DNA of 45,110 nt, taken from positions 8,188 through 53,297 of the forward strand of contig PKZD01000027.1 in assembly GCA_003133745.1 (NCBI GenBank). Reading direction: 5' to 3'. Within the stretch, counting starts at the first letter, position 1. Every line of letters begins with the position of its first letter. The notes beneath the pieces are model-generated. The model made no database searches and was not told where the DNA came from. It saw only the letters and a list, made by a program, of their open reading frames with translations. A program made the position numbers and the translations under genes. Positions 6,792 to 15,863 of this stretch are shown piece by piece. Origin of the DNA: Candidatus Tyrphobacter aquilonaris (GTDB lineage Bacteria; Vulcanimicrobiota; Vulcanimicrobiia; Vulcanimicrobiales; Vulcanimicrobiaceae).

Positions 6792-7226
6792 CTATTGCGC
6801 GGGCGTGAAACGAAGGCCGCTGATCAAACCGGAACCGTCGAGAACGAAGATTTCATCGAGCGTCGTCGTCGCAAATGCAACGCGATAGATGTACGCGGTA
6901 TTGCTCTCGACGATCTCTTTGCCGGCCGGCGTGAACGACGTCGGCTGACCGAGCGCCCCGAACTGTGCCGCGAGCCGGCGCGCGACGTCGGCGGTGAGCA
7001 GCGCGTTCATCTGCGCATCGAGTTGCGCACGATCGATCCTGCCCGTTTGAATCCGGTGCAGCCATTCCTGAGCGCGAGCCATGACGGCGGCATCGCTCGG
7101 CAGGCTCGGCATCGGCGACGCGCTCGCGGAAGGCAGCGGCGTCGCGGGCGTCGTGGGCGCCGCAACCGTGGCGATGGGTGCCGAGCATGCCGCGAAGAGC
7201 GCGACGGCGGCGGCCAGACGCGTCAC
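6792..7226 (-). CDS. Putative exported/lipoprotein of unknown function (tandem paralogue 2)
   Basis: MTRLAAAVALFAACSAP N-terminal signal with lipobox-like FAAC; P/S-rich linker; similar to the neighbouring 7223..7657 product. Confidence 0.7.
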   Translation of the reverse strand: MTRLAAAVALFAACSAPIATVAAPTTPATPLPSASASPMPSLPSDAAVMARAQEWLHRIQTGRIDRAQLDAQMNALLTADVARRLAAQFGALGQPTSFTPAGKEIVESNTAYIYRVAFATTTLDEIFVLDGSGLISGLRFTPAQ

Positions 7227-7657
7227 TGACCCACTGTGAAGCGAAGGACGGCGATCTTGTTATAGTCGTCGAGGACGAGTGTCTCGTCCCAGACGCCGTT
7301 GTCGAAGCGAATTCGATAGAGATACTGGGTCAGGCCGGCGCCAAGACTTTGCTTGTTCGCCAGATTGAACGAGAGCGGACTGCCGAGCGATCCCAGCTCG
7401 CCGGCGAGTCGGCTCACCACATCGGGCGTGAGAGCGGCATTCATTTGATCGTTGAGCTGCGAGCGGTCGATGTTCCCCATCTGCAAGTGCCGTAGCCAAT
7501 CTCGTGCCCATCCCTGGACGACGGCGTCGCTGGGCGGCGTTGGAGCGCTTATGGCCGCCGGGGTGGGCGACGGCGCGCTGGTCTGCGCGGCCGCCTGCGA
7601 AACGCTTTGCGCCGAACCGGCGAGCAAGAAGCAGAGGATAAGAAATCGCGTCATCAT
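7223..7657 (-). CDS. Putative secreted protein of unknown function (tandem paralogue 1)
   Basis: In-frame ATG at 7657 gives signal peptide MMTRFLILCFLLAGSAQSVSQAAAQ. The longer 7792 ORF overlaps the aminotransferase. Confidence 0.7.
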   Translation of the reverse strand: MMTRFLILCFLLAGSAQSVSQAAAQTSAPSPTPAAISAPTPPSDAVVQGWARDWLRHLQMGNIDRSQLNDQMNAALTPDVVSRLAGELGSLGSPLSFNLANKQSLGAGLTQYLYRIRFDNGVWDETLVLDDYNKIAVLRFTVGQ

Positions 7658-7662
7658 GAACG

Positions 7663-8859
7663 TCATCCTTTGAAGTTCGGAAGTGCTTGCGCGATCGCGT
7701 CGAGAGCCCAGTCGATGTCCTCGATCGAGGCCGCGTACGAGAAGCGCAGATATCCGTTCCCGGCCTTTCCGAAGGCGGAGCCGCCGGTGCACGCGACGCC
7801 GGCTTCATCGAGGAGAAAGCGCGCGAGCGCGCGATCGTCTTTCGTGATCCGCGACACGTTGGGGAAGGCATAAAAGGCGCCCTCGGGCAGCGTGCACGAA
7901 AGGCCGGGGATTTTGTTCAAGCCGGCGACGATGCGGTCGCGGCGTTTGTGAAAGGTTGCATTCATCTCGCGCACCGGAGCGTCGGGTCCGCGGAGCGCGG
8001 CGATTCCCGCCTGCTGCACGAACGATGCGACGCAACTGAACGTGTTGTTGTTGAAGAGCGTAACGACTTCGGCAAGCGCCTCGGGCATCAGTGCGTAGCC
8101 CAGGCGCCAGCCGGTCATCGCGTAGGCTTTCGAGAAGCCGTCGACGACGATCGTGCGTTCCCGCATGCCCGGCAGCGCGGCAATCGAAACGTACACGCCC
8201 TCCGTATAGAAGTTGCGGCTATAGATCTCGTCCGCGAGGACGAGGAAATCGTGGCGTTGCGCGAGCGCGGCAATCCGTTCGAGGTCTTCGGGCAGGAGCA
8301 CTCCGCCGGTCGGATTGTGCGGCGAGTTGATGACGAGCAGTTTCGTGCGGTCCGAGACGCACCGCTCCAACTCGTCGAGATCCATGCGCCAACCGCGCTC
8401 CTCGCGCAACGGGATCGCGGTCACCTTCGCTTCCAGGTAGCTCGCCGCACTGGCGTACGCGGGATAGGCGGGGTCGAAGTAGACGAACTCGTCGCCCGGA
8501 TCGAGCAGCGAGCAGAGCGTGTTCCAGATGACCGGTTTGGCACCGGGACTGATGACGACGTTCTCGGGCGTGTACCCCGGCTCGATGTTCCGGAACGCAC
8601 CGGCGTACTCTGCGATCGTGGCGCGGAGGTCGGCCATTCCGGCCGAGGGCGTGTAGTGCGTGTAGCCGGCGTAGAGCGCCTCGACGGCTGCCTGCTTGAT
8701 GTGCTCCGGGGTATCGAAATCGGGCTCGCCGATCTCCATGTGGACCACTCGCCGACCCTGCGCCTCGAGCGCGCGGGCCCGCGCTAGCACTTGGAAAGCG
8801 TTCTCGGCTCCCAGCCGCGCGACCGCGGCGGCGACCCGGTTTTCGGTGGCCGCAAGCAT
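7663..8859 (-). CDS. Class I/II pyridoxal phosphate-dependent aminotransferase
   Basis: HMEIGEPDFDTP, NSPHNPTGGVL, DGFSKAYAMTGWRLGY (PLP lysine region). Confidence 0.92.
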   Translation of the reverse strand: MLAATENRVAAAVARLGAENAFQVLARARALEAQGRRVVHMEIGEPDFDTPEHIKQAAVEALYAGYTHYTPSAGMADLRATIAEYAGAFRNIEPGYTPENVVISPGAKPVIWNTLCSLLDPGDEFVYFDPAYPAYASAASYLEAKVTAIPLREERGWRMDLDELERCVSDRTKLLVINSPHNPTGGVLLPEDLERIAALAQRHDFLVLADEIYSRNFYTEGVYVSIAALPGMRERTIVVDGFSKAYAMTGWRLGYALMPEALAEVVTLFNNNTFSCVASFVQQAGIAALRGPDAPVREMNATFHKRRDRIVAGLNKIPGLSCTLPEGAFYAFPNVSRITKDDRALARFLLDEAGVACTGGSAFGKAGNGYLRFSYAASIEDIDWALDAIAQALPNFKG

Positions 8860-8944: not shown

Positions 8945-11900
8945 ATGCGGACCCTGTCGGAAGTATTCACGCCGGGCGCGCCGACGTTGCCTGAAGGTCT
9001 CAGAACGCTCGTGGTTTCTCCCGAGCGCGAGTTAGAACCTGGGATGACGGTTCGCGCCGGGTTCACGTTCCGCAACAACGGCGGGGCGCCGGCAACCGGC
9101 GTCCGCGTGCGATTCAATCTTCCCGACGGGCTCGTGTACTTGGTCGGAACCGGCCGGCTCGATGGTGCGGACCTCGATGACGAGTTGGGGAACTCACCGC
9201 TGCTCGGTCGCAACGGCGCGCACATCGGCGATGTCGCGCCCGGCGAAGAGCGCCGCATCGAGGTCGCCTACAGCGTCGTCGGCGCGATCGAGAACGGCAC
9301 GACGATCGAGCTCCAAGCGGCCGTCGCTTCGTTTGAAGTGCAGCCGGTCGGCTCCAACGTCGTTCGGCTCATCGCGCGCAGCCGGCCGCAACTGCTCAAT
9401 GCGCTGACCGGCATCACGATCGAGACGCGGCGCGATCCCGCTCCGGGCTGCGAAGCCGAGATCACGGTGCGCGTGCACAACGCCGGCGAGTCGAGCGCGC
9501 ACGACGTCGTCGTCGTCGCCCCGATTCCGGAGCACACGTCGTACGTCCCAGGATCGGCGCGCGTGAACGGGCGAGAGATCGAGCGCGATTTGGGATGCGG
9601 ATACGATCGCGTCTACGCGCCGATCGTCGCGTCCGTGCTCTCCGCGAGCGCGAGCGCGATGCTCGTCTACCGCGTCCGCGTCGATTCCCCGCTTGCCGAC
9701 GGCACGCGCATCATTGCAAACGCGCAGATCGCGTCGCAGGAAACGCCGGCGTTTTCGCTCGAACCCGCGGCGCTCGTCGTGCGCGCGGCGCCCGATTTTG
9801 GGGACGACCGCACGTCGTTCTCCATCGAGCCGGCGACGCAAGTGCATCCGGGCGAGCGCATCGTGCTCACCTTCGTTGCGTGCAACGCGGGCACGGCGGC
9901 TGCCGAAGCGGTCACGCTTTCGATTGAACTTCCCGACGCGCTCATCGCGGTGCGCGGCGCCGCGCGGATCGACGGCAGGCCGACGCGCGAGCGGCGCGTC
10001 GATCAACTCTCCTTCGATCTCGGACGCGTTGAAGGCGGCGAGCGAGTCGAGTTGCGCAGTGAGGCGATCGTCGTCGCACCGCTGCCCGACGGAACGTCGC
10101 TGCCGGTCTATGCGACGCTCGCATGGCAGCCATCGCAGGGTGATGCCGTGCGACGCTTCGAGCGCAGCGTGCTCGTTCGTTCGGAACCCGCGCTCGTACG
10201 GCGCCGCAACACGATCGCCCGTAGCGGCGAAGAGGTCGTGCGCCCCGGACAAGAAATCGAGGCGACGATCTCGATTGCGAACGACGGCAGCGCGCCCGCG
10301 CTCGATTCGTCGCTGCAACTCCGCGTCGATCCCGCGCTCGAGGACATCAGAATATCCGAGCGTGGCACGCGCATTCCCATGGACGCCTTTGCCGCAGATC
10401 TCGGCGCGATCGACCCGTATGCCTATCGCCGCATCACGCTGCAAGCGCGCGTCCGGACGCCGTACGCCGACCGCAGCGAGATCGTCGTGGGCGCAAGCTT
10501 GATGACGCGCGAACTCGGCGAGACGCAACTCGGAGAAACGAGTTGGCGCGTCGATTCACACCCGGCATTTTCGACCGGCAGTTCGCGGATGGAGCTTTCG
10601 ACGGGCGCACTGCTTCGCCCGAATCAACTGGCCGAGGTCGTCGTCTACGTCTTGAACATCGGCAGCGACGTATCGCGCAACGTCCGCGTGCGGCTGCTCG
10701 TCTCACCCGAGGCGCGCTTCGAGAGCGTCGAGGGCGCGACGCGCGAGCGCTCGTCGATTCTCTTTGGCGAGATCGCGCCGGGCGCGGGGGCGCAGGCCCG
10801 TCTCGGACTCCGCCTGCTGCGCAGCGTGCCGAAGGAGCATCCGCTCACCGTCGACGCGGTGCTCACCGCCGATTCGATGCTGCCCGTTCCGCTCGAGCGA
10901 CTGACGATCGTGACCACCGCGACGCCGGATTTCTCGGTGGGAACCTTCCGCAGCAATCCGAGCGACGCGGCCGATCTCGGCGAGACGGTCGAGTGGGCGT
11001 TGCATCTCCGTAACGGCGGCGACGGACCCGCGCGTCAAGTCCAGATTCGCGTCGCGCAGCCGACCTCGCTCATCTACGTTCCGAACTCGACGACCGTGAA
11101 CGACGTTCCGATCCGCGACGTCGGCGCGCTCGGCCCATTCGCAAGCGATCGCGGCATCATGCTCAACGAGTTCGACCCGGGCGTTGAAGCGACGGTTCGG
11201 TGGCGCGACGTCGTGCACAACCAGTTACCCGCGGGCGAGGCGATCGTACGCGTCGCGCACGTCACGTACGACGGCGAGCGTTACGACGAGATCGCTTCGG
11301 ATGAACTGAAAGTGCGAGCAGCACCGGTCTTCGCCAACGCAATCCCCGGCTTGCAGTTCGGCCTCGAGGGCCTCGTCGGTCCGACGACCGACGCGGGAAC
11401 GCGCGAAGATCGCTACGTCGACCTCGCGGCGGCTTCGGCTAACGGCGAGAACGGTGCGTCGCACTACGCATACGGCAACGGCCACGCCGCCGAGACAGGG
11501 CACGCGGGAACCGTGCACGGGTTCAGCAACGAGTGGCTCGCGCGCACGCTGCGCTTCCTCGAGGAGGCGCGCTTCGGGGGCCTGGTAACGCATCTGTTCG
11601 CGCTGCGAGCGTTCCTACCGGAGGCATTGGGCGACGGTCACGCATCGATCGCGCCGGTTGCCGAAGCATTGCGCGAAGAACTCGACCGGCTCTTCATCAA
11701 GCTTCGCCTTCCGAGTTACGCGATCGCCCCGCGCGACGTCGAGACGCCGTCATCGCGCGCGACGGTCGAGCATCTCCTGCACGACTGCGCAGCCGCACAC
11801 GGCATGCCCGCCGATCCGCCGGGTGCGGCCGTGATCATGCGCGGCGGCTACGATCCTGCCGAACTGCACGAGTTGGGCGAGCGCCTGCGCGGCGCCGGGC

Positions 11901-12115
11901 TTGCGACGGCGCTTCCGTGGGCGGCGCTCGCGCGTCTCCTACCGGATTCGACGCCGCAAGCGCAGCACTATCGCGCGCTCCTCGTCGCTCGCCTCGATGC
12001 GCTCTGCGATGCCGAGTCGCCCGAGTTCGTCGAAGCGTTGCAGCATCGCGCCGATAGCGCGCTCGACGGCGCGCTCGACGTCTTCACCACTTCACTTCGT
12101 GCCGCGGTGCCGTAG
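8945..12115 (+). CDS. Large protein with about six DUF11/CARDB-like beta-sandwich repeats plus a C-terminal helical domain
   Basis: Recurrent ~125 aa units of the type LxPGxxVxxxFxxxNxGxxxAxxVxVxxxLPxxLxxVxGSxxxxG. C-terminal region from ~11530 resembles the 12578..13168 product. No hydrophobic N-terminal signal visible. Confidence 0.8.
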   Translation: MRTLSEVFTPGAPTLPEGLRTLVVSPERELEPGMTVRAGFTFRNNGGAPATGVRVRFNLPDGLVYLVGTGRLDGADLDDELGNSPLLGRNGAHIGDVAPGEERRIEVAYSVVGAIENGTTIELQAAVASFEVQPVGSNVVRLIARSRPQLLNALTGITIETRRDPAPGCEAEITVRVHNAGESSAHDVVVVAPIPEHTSYVPGSARVNGREIERDLGCGYDRVYAPIVASVLSASASAMLVYRVRVDSPLADGTRIIANAQIASQETPAFSLEPAALVVRAAPDFGDDRTSFSIEPATQVHPGERIVLTFVACNAGTAAAEAVTLSIELPDALIAVRGAARIDGRPTRERRVDQLSFDLGRVEGGERVELRSEAIVVAPLPDGTSLPVYATLAWQPSQGDAVRRFERSVLVRSEPALVRRRNTIARSGEEVVRPGQEIEATISIANDGSAPALDSSLQLRVDPALEDIRISERGTRIPMDAFAADLGAIDPYAYRRITLQARVRTPYADRSEIVVGASLMTRELGETQLGETSWRVDSHPAFSTGSSRMELSTGALLRPNQLAEVVVYVLNIGSDVSRNVRVRLLVSPEARFESVEGATRERSSILFGEIAPGAGAQARLGLRLLRSVPKEHPLTVDAVLTADSMLPVPLERLTIVTTATPDFSVGTFRSNPSDAADLGETVEWALHLRNGGDGPARQVQIRVAQPTSLIYVPNSTTVNDVPIRDVGALGPFASDRGIMLNEFDPGVEATVRWRDVVHNQLPAGEAIVRVAHVTYDGERYDEIASDELKVRAAPVFANAIPGLQFGLEGLVGPTTDAGTREDRYVDLAAASANGENGASHYAYGNGHAAETGHAGTVHGFSNEWLARTLRFLEEARFGGLVTHLFALRAFLPEALGDGHASIAPVAEALREELDRLFIKLRLPSYAIAPRDVETPSSRATVEHLLHDCAAAHGMPADPPGAAVIMRGGYDPAELHELGERLRGAGLATALPWAALARLLPDSTPQAQHYRALLVARLDALCDAESPEFVEALQHRADSALDGALDVFTTSLRAAVP

Positions 12116-12137
12116 GAAGGCTCCCGGAGGGTAACCC

Positions 12138-12578
12138 ATGATTACGATTGCCATCGCCATTCTGTTCGTTCTCGGTATCGGGCTCGGATTGTACGCCGTC
12201 GTCGCGCCGCGTCGCGCGAGCGAGGGGCTCACGCTGCTCGACCAGGTCGAGAAAGAGCCGCTCCAAGCGACGACCGATTGGACGCACGAAGCGGGGCACG
12301 AGTTCGCCGGGCTTTCGGAATCGGCGCGATGCGATCTCGTCTTTGCGGTCGCAGCGCTGCGCGACGATCGCGCGCACCACTTGCTCGAGTTCGCCTTGCG
12401 CGATCCCAACGAAGCCGTCGCGCTCGCAGCTGCGCACGCGCTGGCCGGTTCGGGGCGCGCACCGACCGTCGAACGTTTTCTCGCGCAGCATCCGGGCGAC
12501 CGCGCGGAGCGCATCGTCTCGACGCTCTCCCTGCTCATCAAACCCGTCGAAGAAGAAGCCGTACCGGCAACGCGGTGA
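12138..12578 (+). CDS. Small N-terminally membrane-anchored HEAT-like repeat protein
   Basis: TM segment MITIAIAILFVLGIGLGLYAVV, then helical repeats (DLVFAVAALRDDRAHHLLEFALRDPNEAVALAAAHALAGSG). GGAGG Shine-Dalgarno upstream. Confidence 0.75.
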   Translation: MITIAIAILFVLGIGLGLYAVVAPRRASEGLTLLDQVEKEPLQATTDWTHEAGHEFAGLSESARCDLVFAVAALRDDRAHHLLEFALRDPNEAVALAAAHALAGSGRAPTVERFLAQHPGDRAERIVSTLSLLIKPVEEEAVPATR

Positions 12579-13168
12579 TGGTGTGCGAGGCGCAGGAGAT
12601 GCTGCGCCGCGTTCGCCTGCTCGACGGCGCCCTCGGGAAGCGGCCGCTCTCGCACCTCCTCTCGTTATGCGTGCTCGTTCCGGCAGCCGCCCCACTGCGC
12701 GAGCGGATCGAGCGGTTGTTCGTGCGCATGCCGCCCGTCATCGATGCCGCCGATCTCGAGACGACGACGGAACGCGAAGCCGTGATCGCCGGCGCGGGCG
12801 CAGCGCTCGCTCCCGACGAGTCGGCGGGAGCAAACGGAGGAGCGGAGATCGTGCGCGTCGCCGGCCTCGTCGATGCGGAGCGCGTGCACGCACTCGTCAC
12901 GGAACTTCGCGCCTCGCCGCTCGGCTCGGCGATCCCATGGATACTCTGCGCGGAACTGCTCGGAACCTCGATCGAATATCGCGGCGCGAGTTCGGTGGTG
13001 CTGGAGACGTACCGCCGGCATCTCCTCGAACGCCTCGTTTCATTTGCGGATCAATCGCCGCAGATCTTTCGCCGGTGGCTTGCCGCCGGGGAGGAACGTG
13101 ACCTGGACGCGCGGCTCGCCGTCGTGCTCGATGCACTGCGCGGCGCCGCCGCGCTCGCGACGGCATAG
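12578..13168 (+). CDS. Helical protein of unknown function, paralogous to the C-terminal domain of the 8945..12115 product
   Basis: ATG at 12578 overlaps the TGA of the preceding gene. LRERIERLFVRM...DLETTTEREAV and LGSAIPWILCAELLG...YRRHLLERL align with the large protein's C-terminus. Confidence 0.7.
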   Translation: MVCEAQEMLRRVRLLDGALGKRPLSHLLSLCVLVPAAAPLRERIERLFVRMPPVIDAADLETTTEREAVIAGAGAALAPDESAGANGGAEIVRVAGLVDAERVHALVTELRASPLGSAIPWILCAELLGTSIEYRGASSVVLETYRRHLLERLVSFADQSPQIFRRWLAAGEERDLDARLAVVLDALRGAAALATA

Positions 13169-13172
13169 GCCC

Positions 13173-13493
13173 ATGCCGCTGATCGGCATTCTCATCGTGC
13201 TCTTGCTCGCGCTTGCGGTCTACGTGCGCGCGACGAACCGTCCGATCGCGATCGAATCCTCCAACGCCATCCCGTTACGGCCGCCCGAACTCACCTGGAC
13301 GAGACGCGTCGTCGGCGACGTGCCGACGCCCGATGCGCGTGAGCGGCTCGCGATCGTGAGCCGTCTCGCGTTGCTCGCCAATGCCTGGAGCATCGAAATA
13401 CTAGAGGAAGCGTTGGGCGACGAGTACGATGCGACGGTGCGCGATGCGATCTGGCGCGCGCTGCTCGCTATCCGCGCTTCTGAAAATACTTGA
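13173..13493 (+). CDS. Small N-terminally membrane-anchored HEAT-like protein, paralogue of 12138..12578
   Basis: MPLIGILIVLLLALAVYVRAT TM segment; LTWTRRVVGDVPTPDARERLAIVSRLALLANAWSIEILEEALGDEYDATVRDAIWRALLA resembles the 12138 product. Confidence 0.65.
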   Translation: MPLIGILIVLLLALAVYVRATNRPIAIESSNAIPLRPPELTWTRRVVGDVPTPDARERLAIVSRLALLANAWSIEILEEALGDEYDATVRDAIWRALLAIRASENT

Positions 13494-15327
13494 CCAAGAT
13501 TGCGCGCGCGATCGGCGCGGCAACTTGCGCGCCGTAACCGCCGCTGCGATCGACGAAGACGGCCATTGCAAACCGCGGATGGTCGCTCGGTGCCCAGCAG
13601 ATGAACCACGTCGTGTTCGGTCCATGTCCGCCCGCGGTTTCGACGGTACCGGTCTTGCCGGAAAACGGGAAGCCGGCGATTGCGAGCCCGTAAGCGGTTC
13701 CACCGGGATCGGTGACGCGTGCCATTCCCGCGCGCACCGCTTCGAGCGCTTCCTGCGTTGCGGGAATCTGACGGATGACGCGTGGTCGAAGCTCTGTTAC
13801 GAGCGTGCCGTTGGGCGCGCGGATCTCCGTGACGACGCGCGGGCTGTAAAGCGTCCCGCCGTTGATGACCGCCGACGCGATGTTGACCATCTGCAGCGGC
13901 GTCGCTTGCATCGCGCCCTGTCCGATGCCGAGGCTGCAGACGTCGCTCGGTTCGAGCGGAACGCCATACGTCTTTTCCATCCAAGCGTTGGTCGGCCAGT
14001 TTCCGTCGCCTTCGCCGGGCAAATCGATGCCGCTATCCTTTGCCAGGCCGAATAAGAGCGCCCATTTGCGCAAGCGCTCGTTGCCGAGGTACCACGAGAG
14101 GCGGTAGAAGTACCCGTCGCTCGAGGCGGCGAGCGCGGGCACGAACGTCGTGTCACCGAGGCCGCCGGCGGCGATGTCGCGAGCGAGATAGCCGCCGCAG
14201 TTCCACGCCCCGCTGTCGTAGACGACCTGACCCACGCCGATGACGCCTTCGGTGAGCGCCGCCGAACCGGTGACCATCTTGAACGTCGAGCCGGTCGGCG
14301 TTGCGGCGGCGATCGCACGGTCGAAGAGCGGTTCGAGCGGCGAGGTCAGATATGCCTCGACGTTCGCGGAGCGCTCCATCGCGAAATCGTTCGGGTCGAA
14401 GTTCGGAAAACTCGCGAGCGCGAGAATTTCTCCGGTGTACGGGTCCTCCGCGACGACCGCGCCGGAGAGCGCGCGCCCGCGACCCCAGGAGGCGAGACCG
14501 TTCGCAAGCGCTTCCTCGACGATGCGCTGCAAGCGCATGTCGATGGACGTGGTCAACGAATCGCCCGGCGACGCCGGCTTCTGTGGGAAGCGCGCGCCGC
14601 GCACGACCTGCCCGGACGCGTCTACCTCAATGCGCTCGCCGCCGGGCTGACCGCGCAGATACCCGTCGTATTGCGCCTCCAATCCGTCCTTGCCGATGAC
14701 GTCGTTCGGCGAGTAGCCGCGCGTGCGCAACTGCGTATACTCTTCCTGACTGATCTCACCGACGTAGCCGAGAATATGCGACCCGATGTCGCCGTTGGGA
14801 TAGTTGCGAATCGGCTGCGCCTCGAGATCGATGCCCGGAAGATCGGTCAATATCTCCGAGAGACGCGCAACGGTCGGCACCGGCAAGTTGACGGCGAGCA
14901 CGATCGGTCCGTACGGTTCGTTTGCCACGATCTGCGCGAACGAGGTGTAATCGATGCCGTGATGGTGGAAGAGCCGCTGCAGGAGCGTATCCTGCGATAC
15001 GCCGATCGTTTGCGAGATCACGGCGATCTCGCGGTCGAGATCGTCGATCTCGGACGGAATGAGTCCAACGACGAATGACGGCCGGCTGCGCGCGAGGACG
15101 TGGCCCGCGCGGTCGTAGATGATGCCTCGGGGAGCGGAGACTCGGATCAAGCGGATCTGATTCTCTTGCGCCGCGGCGCGATATCGCGCGCCGTCGACGA
15201 GTTGGAGGGCGATGAGCCGCACGATCAGGCAGAGCAGCGCCGCCGCCATTATCCCCGCGAAGACGAGGATGCGCAACGACGGGCGCTCCCACGCCTTCTT
15301 ACGACGTTGAGGATGCATCGCGCTCAT
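13468..15327 (-). CDS. mrdA: Penicillin-binding protein 2 (elongasome transpeptidase)
   Basis: MSAMHPQRRKKAWERPSLRILVFAGIM...; TPTGSTFKMVTG (SxxK), SSDGYF, SGKTGT(V)E motifs; follows mreCD. Confidence 0.93.
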   Translation of the reverse strand: MSAMHPQRRKKAWERPSLRILVFAGIMAAALLCLIVRLIALQLVDGARYRAAAQENQIRLIRVSAPRGIIYDRAGHVLARSRPSFVVGLIPSEIDDLDREIAVISQTIGVSQDTLLQRLFHHHGIDYTSFAQIVANEPYGPIVLAVNLPVPTVARLSEILTDLPGIDLEAQPIRNYPNGDIGSHILGYVGEISQEEYTQLRTRGYSPNDVIGKDGLEAQYDGYLRGQPGGERIEVDASGQVVRGARFPQKPASPGDSLTTSIDMRLQRIVEEALANGLASWGRGRALSGAVVAEDPYTGEILALASFPNFDPNDFAMERSANVEAYLTSPLEPLFDRAIAAATPTGSTFKMVTGSAALTEGVIGVGQVVYDSGAWNCGGYLARDIAAGGLGDTTFVPALAASSDGYFYRLSWYLGNERLRKWALLFGLAKDSGIDLPGEGDGNWPTNAWMEKTYGVPLEPSDVCSLGIGQGAMQATPLQMVNIASAVINGGTLYSPRVVTEIRAPNGTLVTELRPRVIRQIPATQEALEAVRAGMARVTDPGGTAYGLAIAGFPFSGKTGTVETAGGHGPNTTWFICWAPSDHPRFAMAVFVDRSGGYGAQVAAPIARAILVKYFQKRG

Positions 15328-15863
15328 CGACGGCGTCTCGCGATCGCGCGGTGCTCGAAGCGCCGGGCCAAGAACATGACGACGGCGGCGACGGCCGCGT
15401 TGAGCGCGGCCGCAATGAGCGCCTCGTGGAAGTGCATCGCGCCCAATCCCGCCGGGAAACCCTCGATCTTCTTCACGATCCAGAAGATGAGCGCGCGCAC
15501 GAGCGTCGCGAGCGCGGTCACGATCATGAAGAACGGCATCGAGTCTTCGAAGAAACGGCGCGTCGGAAGCGATGCCAAGACCGCCGTGATCGTCGTCGCG
15601 ATCGTCCATGCGCCGCCGGGATCGAAGGCGAGCATGTCCTCACCGAGGCCCGCGAAAAAGCCGTAGAGCAGCGCACGGCCGAGGCCGGCTCGCATCGCGA
15701 ACCAGACGACCGCGACGAGGACGAGGCTCGGCTCGACGCCGCGGACGGCGGCGAAGTGCACGACCGTTCCCTGCGCGATGAGCGCTGCGACGAGCCACGC
15801 CGCGGCGCCCGATTGCGGTCCCGCGAGGCGCAGCGACGGCGCGCTACTTCGTGAGTACGACAA
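15324..15863 (-). CDS. mreD: Rod shape-determining protein MreD
   Basis: Multi-TM protein between mreC and mrdA; stop overlaps the mrdA ATG (ATGA). The start is uncertain; TTG at 15863 is one candidate. Confidence 0.75.
   Translation of the reverse strand: MSYSRSSAPSLRLAGPQSGAAAWLVAALIAQGTVVHFAAVRGVEPSLVLVAVVWFAMRAGLGRALLYGFFAGLGEDMLAFDPGGAWTIATTITAVLASLPTRRFFEDSMPFFMIVTALATLVRALIFWIVKKIEGFPAGLGAMHFHEALIAAALNAAVAAVVMFLARRFEHRAIARRRR

Follow-up and report, generated by a model that had tools for sequence, protein, structure and literature searches.

The window analysed here, a 45,110-nucleotide stretch of contig PKZD01000027.1 from Candidatus Tyrphobacter aquilonaris, carries a compact block of four genes whose products we call A, B, A' and B' (genes 1 to 4). 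Comparison with relatives identifies the A-B pair as a conserved two-gene module in the order of Candidatus Eremiobacterota (Vulcanimicrobiota) to which this genome belongs. A joins tandem β-sandwich repeats to a C-terminal helical domain (CTD) that defines the family, and B combines a transmembrane (TM) helix with HEAT-like helices. The reading that we place first, though tentatively, is that the pair would form a membrane-tethered cytoplasmic scaffold linked to type IV pili, the grappling-hook machines of motility.

Conservation and genomic position of the A-B module

All four open reading frames (ORFs) proposed in a first-pass annotation of this DNA are present at the coordinates given there (Table 1), and all are conserved. 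A profile search with the CTD found it in 82 of the 149 genomes of the phylum, every one of them within a single order. B was matched 66 times, and in 63 cases it lies directly downstream of the CTD of A on the same strand, with a median gap of 10 base pairs (bp) to the CTD match. The three remaining matches comprise one at a contig start (G073), one in a genome where A ends another contig (G005), and one on a contig that bears a second A copy, A2, without a match to A (G098). The genomes are mostly metagenome-assembled, and gene calls in the relatives come from a simple caller of our own; g1, f1 and the like are anonymous labels of genera and families, and G000 denotes the window's own genome. 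The survey of neighbourhoods suggested by the first-pass annotation thus recovers a conserved pair and not a chance adjacency in one genome; chance ORFs and chance adjacency are alike ruled out by gene conservation, by ratios of non-synonymous to synonymous substitution (dN/dS) below 1 and by the retained gene order. Across phyla, a search of GTDB genomes based on a 20-sequence CTD alignment yielded 44 relatives, those named being all Candidatus Eremiobacterota; one order was sampled deeply, and this search, being pattern-based, may miss distant relatives.

The module usually sits between aat and mrdA in opposite orientation to them, as in most family f1 genomes examined. In module-free genomes (locus L210 is one case), including those of another family of the class, mrdA directly adjoins aat on the same strand, usually at a distance of 50-270 bp, and the block would therefore have been inserted there, or repeatedly lost, as a unit. 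Family f2 and the extra loci of genus g9 have the module away from mrdA, the g9 copies being found at unrelated loci (e.g. L083, L084, L091, L095); one genome, G015, has two A-B loci (L045 and L091). Genera g9 and g44 also possess a shorter A paralogue of about 730-950 amino acids (aa) (L084, L086, L088, L089, L091, L092), which has a small TM partner of its own where the downstream gene was called, an adjacent gene for a Crp-like regulator, and priA or clpX/clpP near by. At the aat-mrdA site of G012 (L051:7366-10411) a 551-aa short A precedes a 369-aa protein that is unrelated and has no Pfam match.

Table 1. Coordinates of the four-gene block, its borders and possibly related loci (window positions unless a locus is named)
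Feature	Position	Strand	Description or basis
Gene 1 (A), N-terminal ~850 aa	8945..11506	+	Tandem DUF11/CARDB-type β-sandwich repeats, without signal peptide
Gene 1 CTD, family-defining	11507..12115	+	68-sequence alignment, AlphaFold model
Gene 2 (B)	12138..12578	+	TM helix at the N-terminus (about 12147-12203), then a linker and HEAT-like helices
TGATG, shared by the gene 2 stop and gene 3 start	12576..12580	+	Read from sequence
Gene 3 (A'), stand-alone CTD copy	12578..13168	+	BLASTP and profile match to gene 1 CTD; tree
Gene 4 (B')	13173..13493	+	TM helix (about 13179-13235) and short HEAT-like region
Left border, aminotransferase gene (aat)	7663..8859	-	Adjoins mrdA in module-free genomes
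Right border, mrdA (PBP2), then mreD, mreC, maf	13468..15609	-	Convergent with the module
DUF11+CTD-like protein loci	L101:11291-13672, L100:8723-11345, L198-L203		Among fliD/fliS-like, flagellin and glycosylation genes

Within the block, the TGATG overlap suggests that genes 2 and 3 are translationally coupled, and mrdA overlaps gene 4 convergently by 26 bp. A search of the window against Rfam gave no match. Upstream lie two adjacent minus-strand paralogues (6792-7226 and 7223-7792) with signal-peptide-like N-termini, whose called parts match one another with a BLAST E value of 5e-22.

Gene 1 and its C-terminal domain

Gene 1 encodes a protein of 1056 aa that matches the Pfam family DUF11 (PF01345) over four stretches with an E value of 2.7e-24 and a score of 86.1 bits, above the curated cut-off of 24.6; the corresponding NCBIfam model TIGR01451 is matched with an E value of 3.3e-28. 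No hydrophobic N-terminus indicative of a signal peptide was seen in A across 19 homologues (maximum Kyte-Doolittle value over a 19-residue window in the first 60 aa, <=1.12), and the start of the protein is marked by a conserved 'MRTLxEVFxxG'.

The CTD, for its part, has no match in Pfam, NCBIfam or PADLOC. Its AlphaFold model (pLDDT 96, pTM 0.92) is mainly helical with two short strands. Foldseek comparison of this model with the PDB gave 73 matches at E<=10, none of them at E<=0.001, the best having an E value of 0.65 and a TM-score of 0.17; the best match of the CTD sequence profile to the PDB has an E value of 0.68. There is a real chance that the CTD represents a new fold.

Gene 2, gene 4 and the membrane anchor

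Both B-type proteins begin with a predicted TM helix, the 19-residue Kyte-Doolittle value reaching 2.71 at residue 4 of gene 2 and 2.49 at residue 3 of gene 4. Their scores against HEAT_2 (PF13646), 17.3 and 16.9 bits respectively, fall below the cut-off of 27.7, which is passed by the B homologue at L085 (28.2 bits, E = 2.3e-6). The first-pass annotation had matched gene 4 to gene 2 by eye. As single sequences the two are not significantly similar (E = 0.42), whereas their family profiles align with a probability of 94.1 and an E value of 1.3e-7, pairwise profile E values here and below being uncorrected for database size. On sequence comparison, then, genes 2 and 4 appear as distant relatives, gene 4 being a diverged second B; this is the weaker half of the proposed paralogy, because of the E values from single comparisons and because hydrophobic TM and HEAT-like helices are common to both. 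Family f2 and some of g9 have a longer B, whose N-terminal half aligns to gene 4 (E = 4e-12) and whose C-terminal half aligns to gene 2 (E = 4e-9). Since HEAT repeats resemble one another, this is only a hint that B and B' may have retained different parts of a longer ancestor.

Net positive charge is higher after the B helix than before it in 26 of 41 homologues and lower in 8, a modest sign that the C-terminus of B is cytoplasmic. Since A lacks a signal peptide and B resembles an N-terminally anchored HEAT protein, the A-B complex probably lies in the cytoplasm, with B tethering it to the inner membrane. In g34, at ten of ten loci examined (ten genomes), A is followed by a single ORF that fuses B to a second CTD, and this union in one polypeptide makes a joint membrane-tethered complex, as proposed in the first pass, plausible. 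The model of such a fused homologue (pTM 0.63) has a TM helix, a disordered linker, six helices, a further linker and the CTD; Foldseek found no significant match to it in the PDB.

Gene 3 and the history of the duplication

Gene 3 had been proposed to match the C-terminus of gene 1, and this proved correct: the two share 30% identity over gene 1 residues 865-1054 (BLASTP E = 2e-9), and their profiles align over 201 columns with a probability of 99.7 and an E value of 6.3e-27. The profile similarity on which the first-pass annotation had staked the paralogy is therefore found for both pairs of genes. Twelve related genera (g7, g10, g11, g12, g14, g29, g36, g40, g41, g42, g43 and g46) have the order A-B-A2, the A2 protein being complete (about 1,090 aa), so that the sandwich repeats are not confined to A as had been supposed, and in the window's genus the second copy is reduced to the CTD. 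Because these genera have a full-length A2 as second copy, the simplest reading of gene 3 is a truncated, fast-evolving A2 that lost its β-sandwich repeats, which we consider likely, not proven. Genes 3 and 4 are constrained but evolve faster than genes 1 and 2, with NG86 dN/dS of 0.41-0.55 and 0.37-0.55, respectively, against 0.14-0.24; as dS is near saturation, only the contrast between the gene pairs matters.

The A-B-A'-B' order in the window's genus had been taken to reflect a simple tandem duplication of A-B in which A alone had ever carried sandwich repeats. As a recent event this is improbable, given the full-length A2 of the 12 genera and the CTD tree, where A is monophyletic (bootstrap 88) without gene 3; the duplication would therefore be older than the genus. 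Gene 3 homologues group near A2 on that tree, but this placement is weakly supported and has a long branch as its neighbour. What stands of the earlier proposal is that A' and B' are paralogues of the module. The full four-gene order is not universal, since several genomes with A-B-A2 have only a small second B or none. Local rearrangements were also seen: at one locus B and A2 are separated by an inserted pair, VapBC-type by eye, of a PIN-domain-like and a short antitoxin-like gene (L039:9479-10119), and the B' gene of G007 runs opposite to A-B-A' (L035:7526-7831).

A homologous pair within type IV pilus operons

In six genomes (G010, G021, G023, G024, G080 and G107) a CTD protein with a HEAT or TM/HEAT partner is encoded between pilQ and the second pilT of a pil operon, and in a further one, G130, a CTD gene alone follows pilQ before the contig ends. 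None of these seven genomes has a module copy at the aat-mrdA site. Pfam identifies secretin, PilM, PilN, PilC and PilT in the operon at L206. The CTD encoded there is homologous to that of the module (profile E = 5.1e-17), and the partner aligns with long B (profile E = 7.8e-13) and weakly with short B. As seen at L205-L209 and L243, the pair has the same gene order as the module; the CTD protein differs in lacking the DUF11 array, in place of which short N-terminal repeats are visible by eye.

The module co-occurs with PilT, though not exclusively. Among 58 high-quality genomes (>=90% complete, <=5% contaminated), it is present, at either site, in all 38 with PilT and in 11 of the 20 without (Fisher p = 1.6e-5), and the association persists when genomes are collapsed by genus (p = 0.0012). 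Where flagellar FlhA is absent, the module occurs in 15/15 genomes with PilT against 8/17 without (p = 0.001). PilT was taken as the pilus marker because PilM_2 gave apparent cross-hits to FtsA, in nearly every genome; secretin was likewise rejected, as too widespread. The PilT threshold of E <1e-60 lies in a gap between strong matches and cross-hits and was set after the data had been seen. The cultured Vulcanimicrobium alpinus WC8-2 is reported to show phototactic movement with type IV pili and to lack flagella (PMC9758169).

Flagellar-locus proteins and a second FHIPEP-family gene

A possibly related DUF11+CTD-like protein is encoded beside an ExeA-like AAA ATPase in flagellar loci (Table 1). 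Its C-terminal domain resembles the CTD in size and motif order, with a profile probability of 36 and an E value of 4e-4. It is kept as a lead only, because direct comparison of this domain with the pil-operon CTD revealed no relation. The window's genome has only a short DUF11 piece, a remnant, beside a csrA-like gene (G000:C9:4322-4687, L197). At G000:C8:13291-15225 it also encodes a second protein of the FHIPEP family (E about 1e-190), as do most genomes of the order. This protein is distinct from the FlhA of the flagellum (E about 1e-257), occurs in its absence, and may be part of another type III-like export system.

Proposed function and alternatives

We envisage that its N-terminal helix would fix B in the inner membrane and leave its HEAT domain on the cytoplasmic side, and that B would hold the CTD of A, of A', or of both. 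The stiff DUF11 array of A would then reach into the cytosol, serving as a spacer or docking rod and making the module a membrane-tethered cytoplasmic scaffold. Genomic context alone points to the type IV pilus machine as its most likely client, in which case the role would be in assembly, positioning or regulation of the cytoplasmic motors and inner-membrane platform. Several observations weigh against this proposal. Eleven high-quality genomes have the module without PilT, and the module is therefore not strictly pilus-dependent. In the window's genome the module genes lie outside the pil operon, which is found on another contig (G000:C6, L236) beside ftsA-ftsZ-like genes and lacks a CTD-B pair, and no CTD match was obtained in G097 (84% complete), although it has a pil operon. 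The co-occurrence test was post hoc, with a PilT cut-off of our own choosing and kinship corrected by genus only. The model of the fused protein gives no proof that B docks on the CTD, and no catalytic or binding site was identified.

The closest competitor, which we rate a serious possibility, is a membrane-tethered cytoplasmic scaffold serving another envelope process, the pair in the pil operons being only a specialised relative. This would accommodate the PilT-negative genomes with the module, eight of which also lack flagellar FlhA, the copies at unrelated g9 loci and, if it is indeed related, the flagellar-locus protein with its low profile probability. Set against it is the distribution of the module: no high-quality genome with PilT lacks it, and the nine module-free ones, without exception, lack PilT too. 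Because the module is never missing from high-quality genomes with PilT yet persists in some genomes without it, we rank the pilus-linked scaffold first and this one second. A part in the cell-elongation machinery (MreB/PBP2) is unlikely: the site beside mrdA-mreDC is kept in most of the f1 genomes examined, but the module is convergent with mrdA and not co-transcribed with it, in many genomes mrdA and aat adjoin with no module between them, and neither family f2 nor the extra g9 loci have it there.

A surface or secreted location is usual for DUF11 proteins, though not strictly defining, and the repeats of gene 1 could accordingly be read as those of an adhesin. We think this improbable, since the conserved N-terminal motif fixes the start of A in homologues without a signal peptide and the basic residues that follow the helix of B speak for a HEAT domain in the cytoplasm. 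Presence or absence of the block as a whole between two housekeeping genes might equally suggest anti-phage defence or another mobile cassette. Of all the explanations this is the one to which we give least credence: PADLOC recognised 0 families among the four proteins and the fused homologue, the site is constant across the family, and genes 1 and 2 are under strong purifying selection.

Relation to known systems

The components of the module have familiar counterparts. As in DUF11/CARDB proteins (PF01345, PF07705, TIGR01451), several β-sandwich repeats are found in gene 1, which differs from them in having no signal peptide, in ending with an unmatched helical domain and in being followed by a gene for a TM-HEAT partner. 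B homologues match HEAT-repeat proteins (PF13646) but have a single N-terminal TM anchor and are tightly linked to the CTD protein. FimV and HubP are inner-membrane and cytoplasmic accessories of type IV pili, membrane-anchored and with a cytoplasmic repeat domain that organises the pole or motor. By analogy, the module would act alike; it differs in having no sequence relation to them in Pfam and NCBIfam searches, in lacking a LysM domain and in consisting of two separate proteins. The literature library searched holds no paper joining Eremiobacterota to DUF11, or DUF11 to type IV pili and HEAT repeats. The repeats and the HEAT domain, like pilus accessories in general, are of familiar types, while the CTD, its pairing with B and the fused form are unmatched in the libraries searched, and there is a real chance that the module is a new class.

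A broader proposition, possible but doubtful, is that a lineage-specific class of cytoplasmic membrane-tethered scaffolds with a new-fold helical domain has been reused on type IV pili, possibly on flagella and at a stand-alone locus, Ig-like arrays that are normally extracellular serving here as rigid cytoplasmic rods. What emerges is an uncharacterised gene module that most members of one order share, in a phylum with hardly any cultured representatives. Its connection to type IV pili is the first functional handle on it, and because a homologous pair lies inside the pilus genes of some relatives, the function of the module is now testable.

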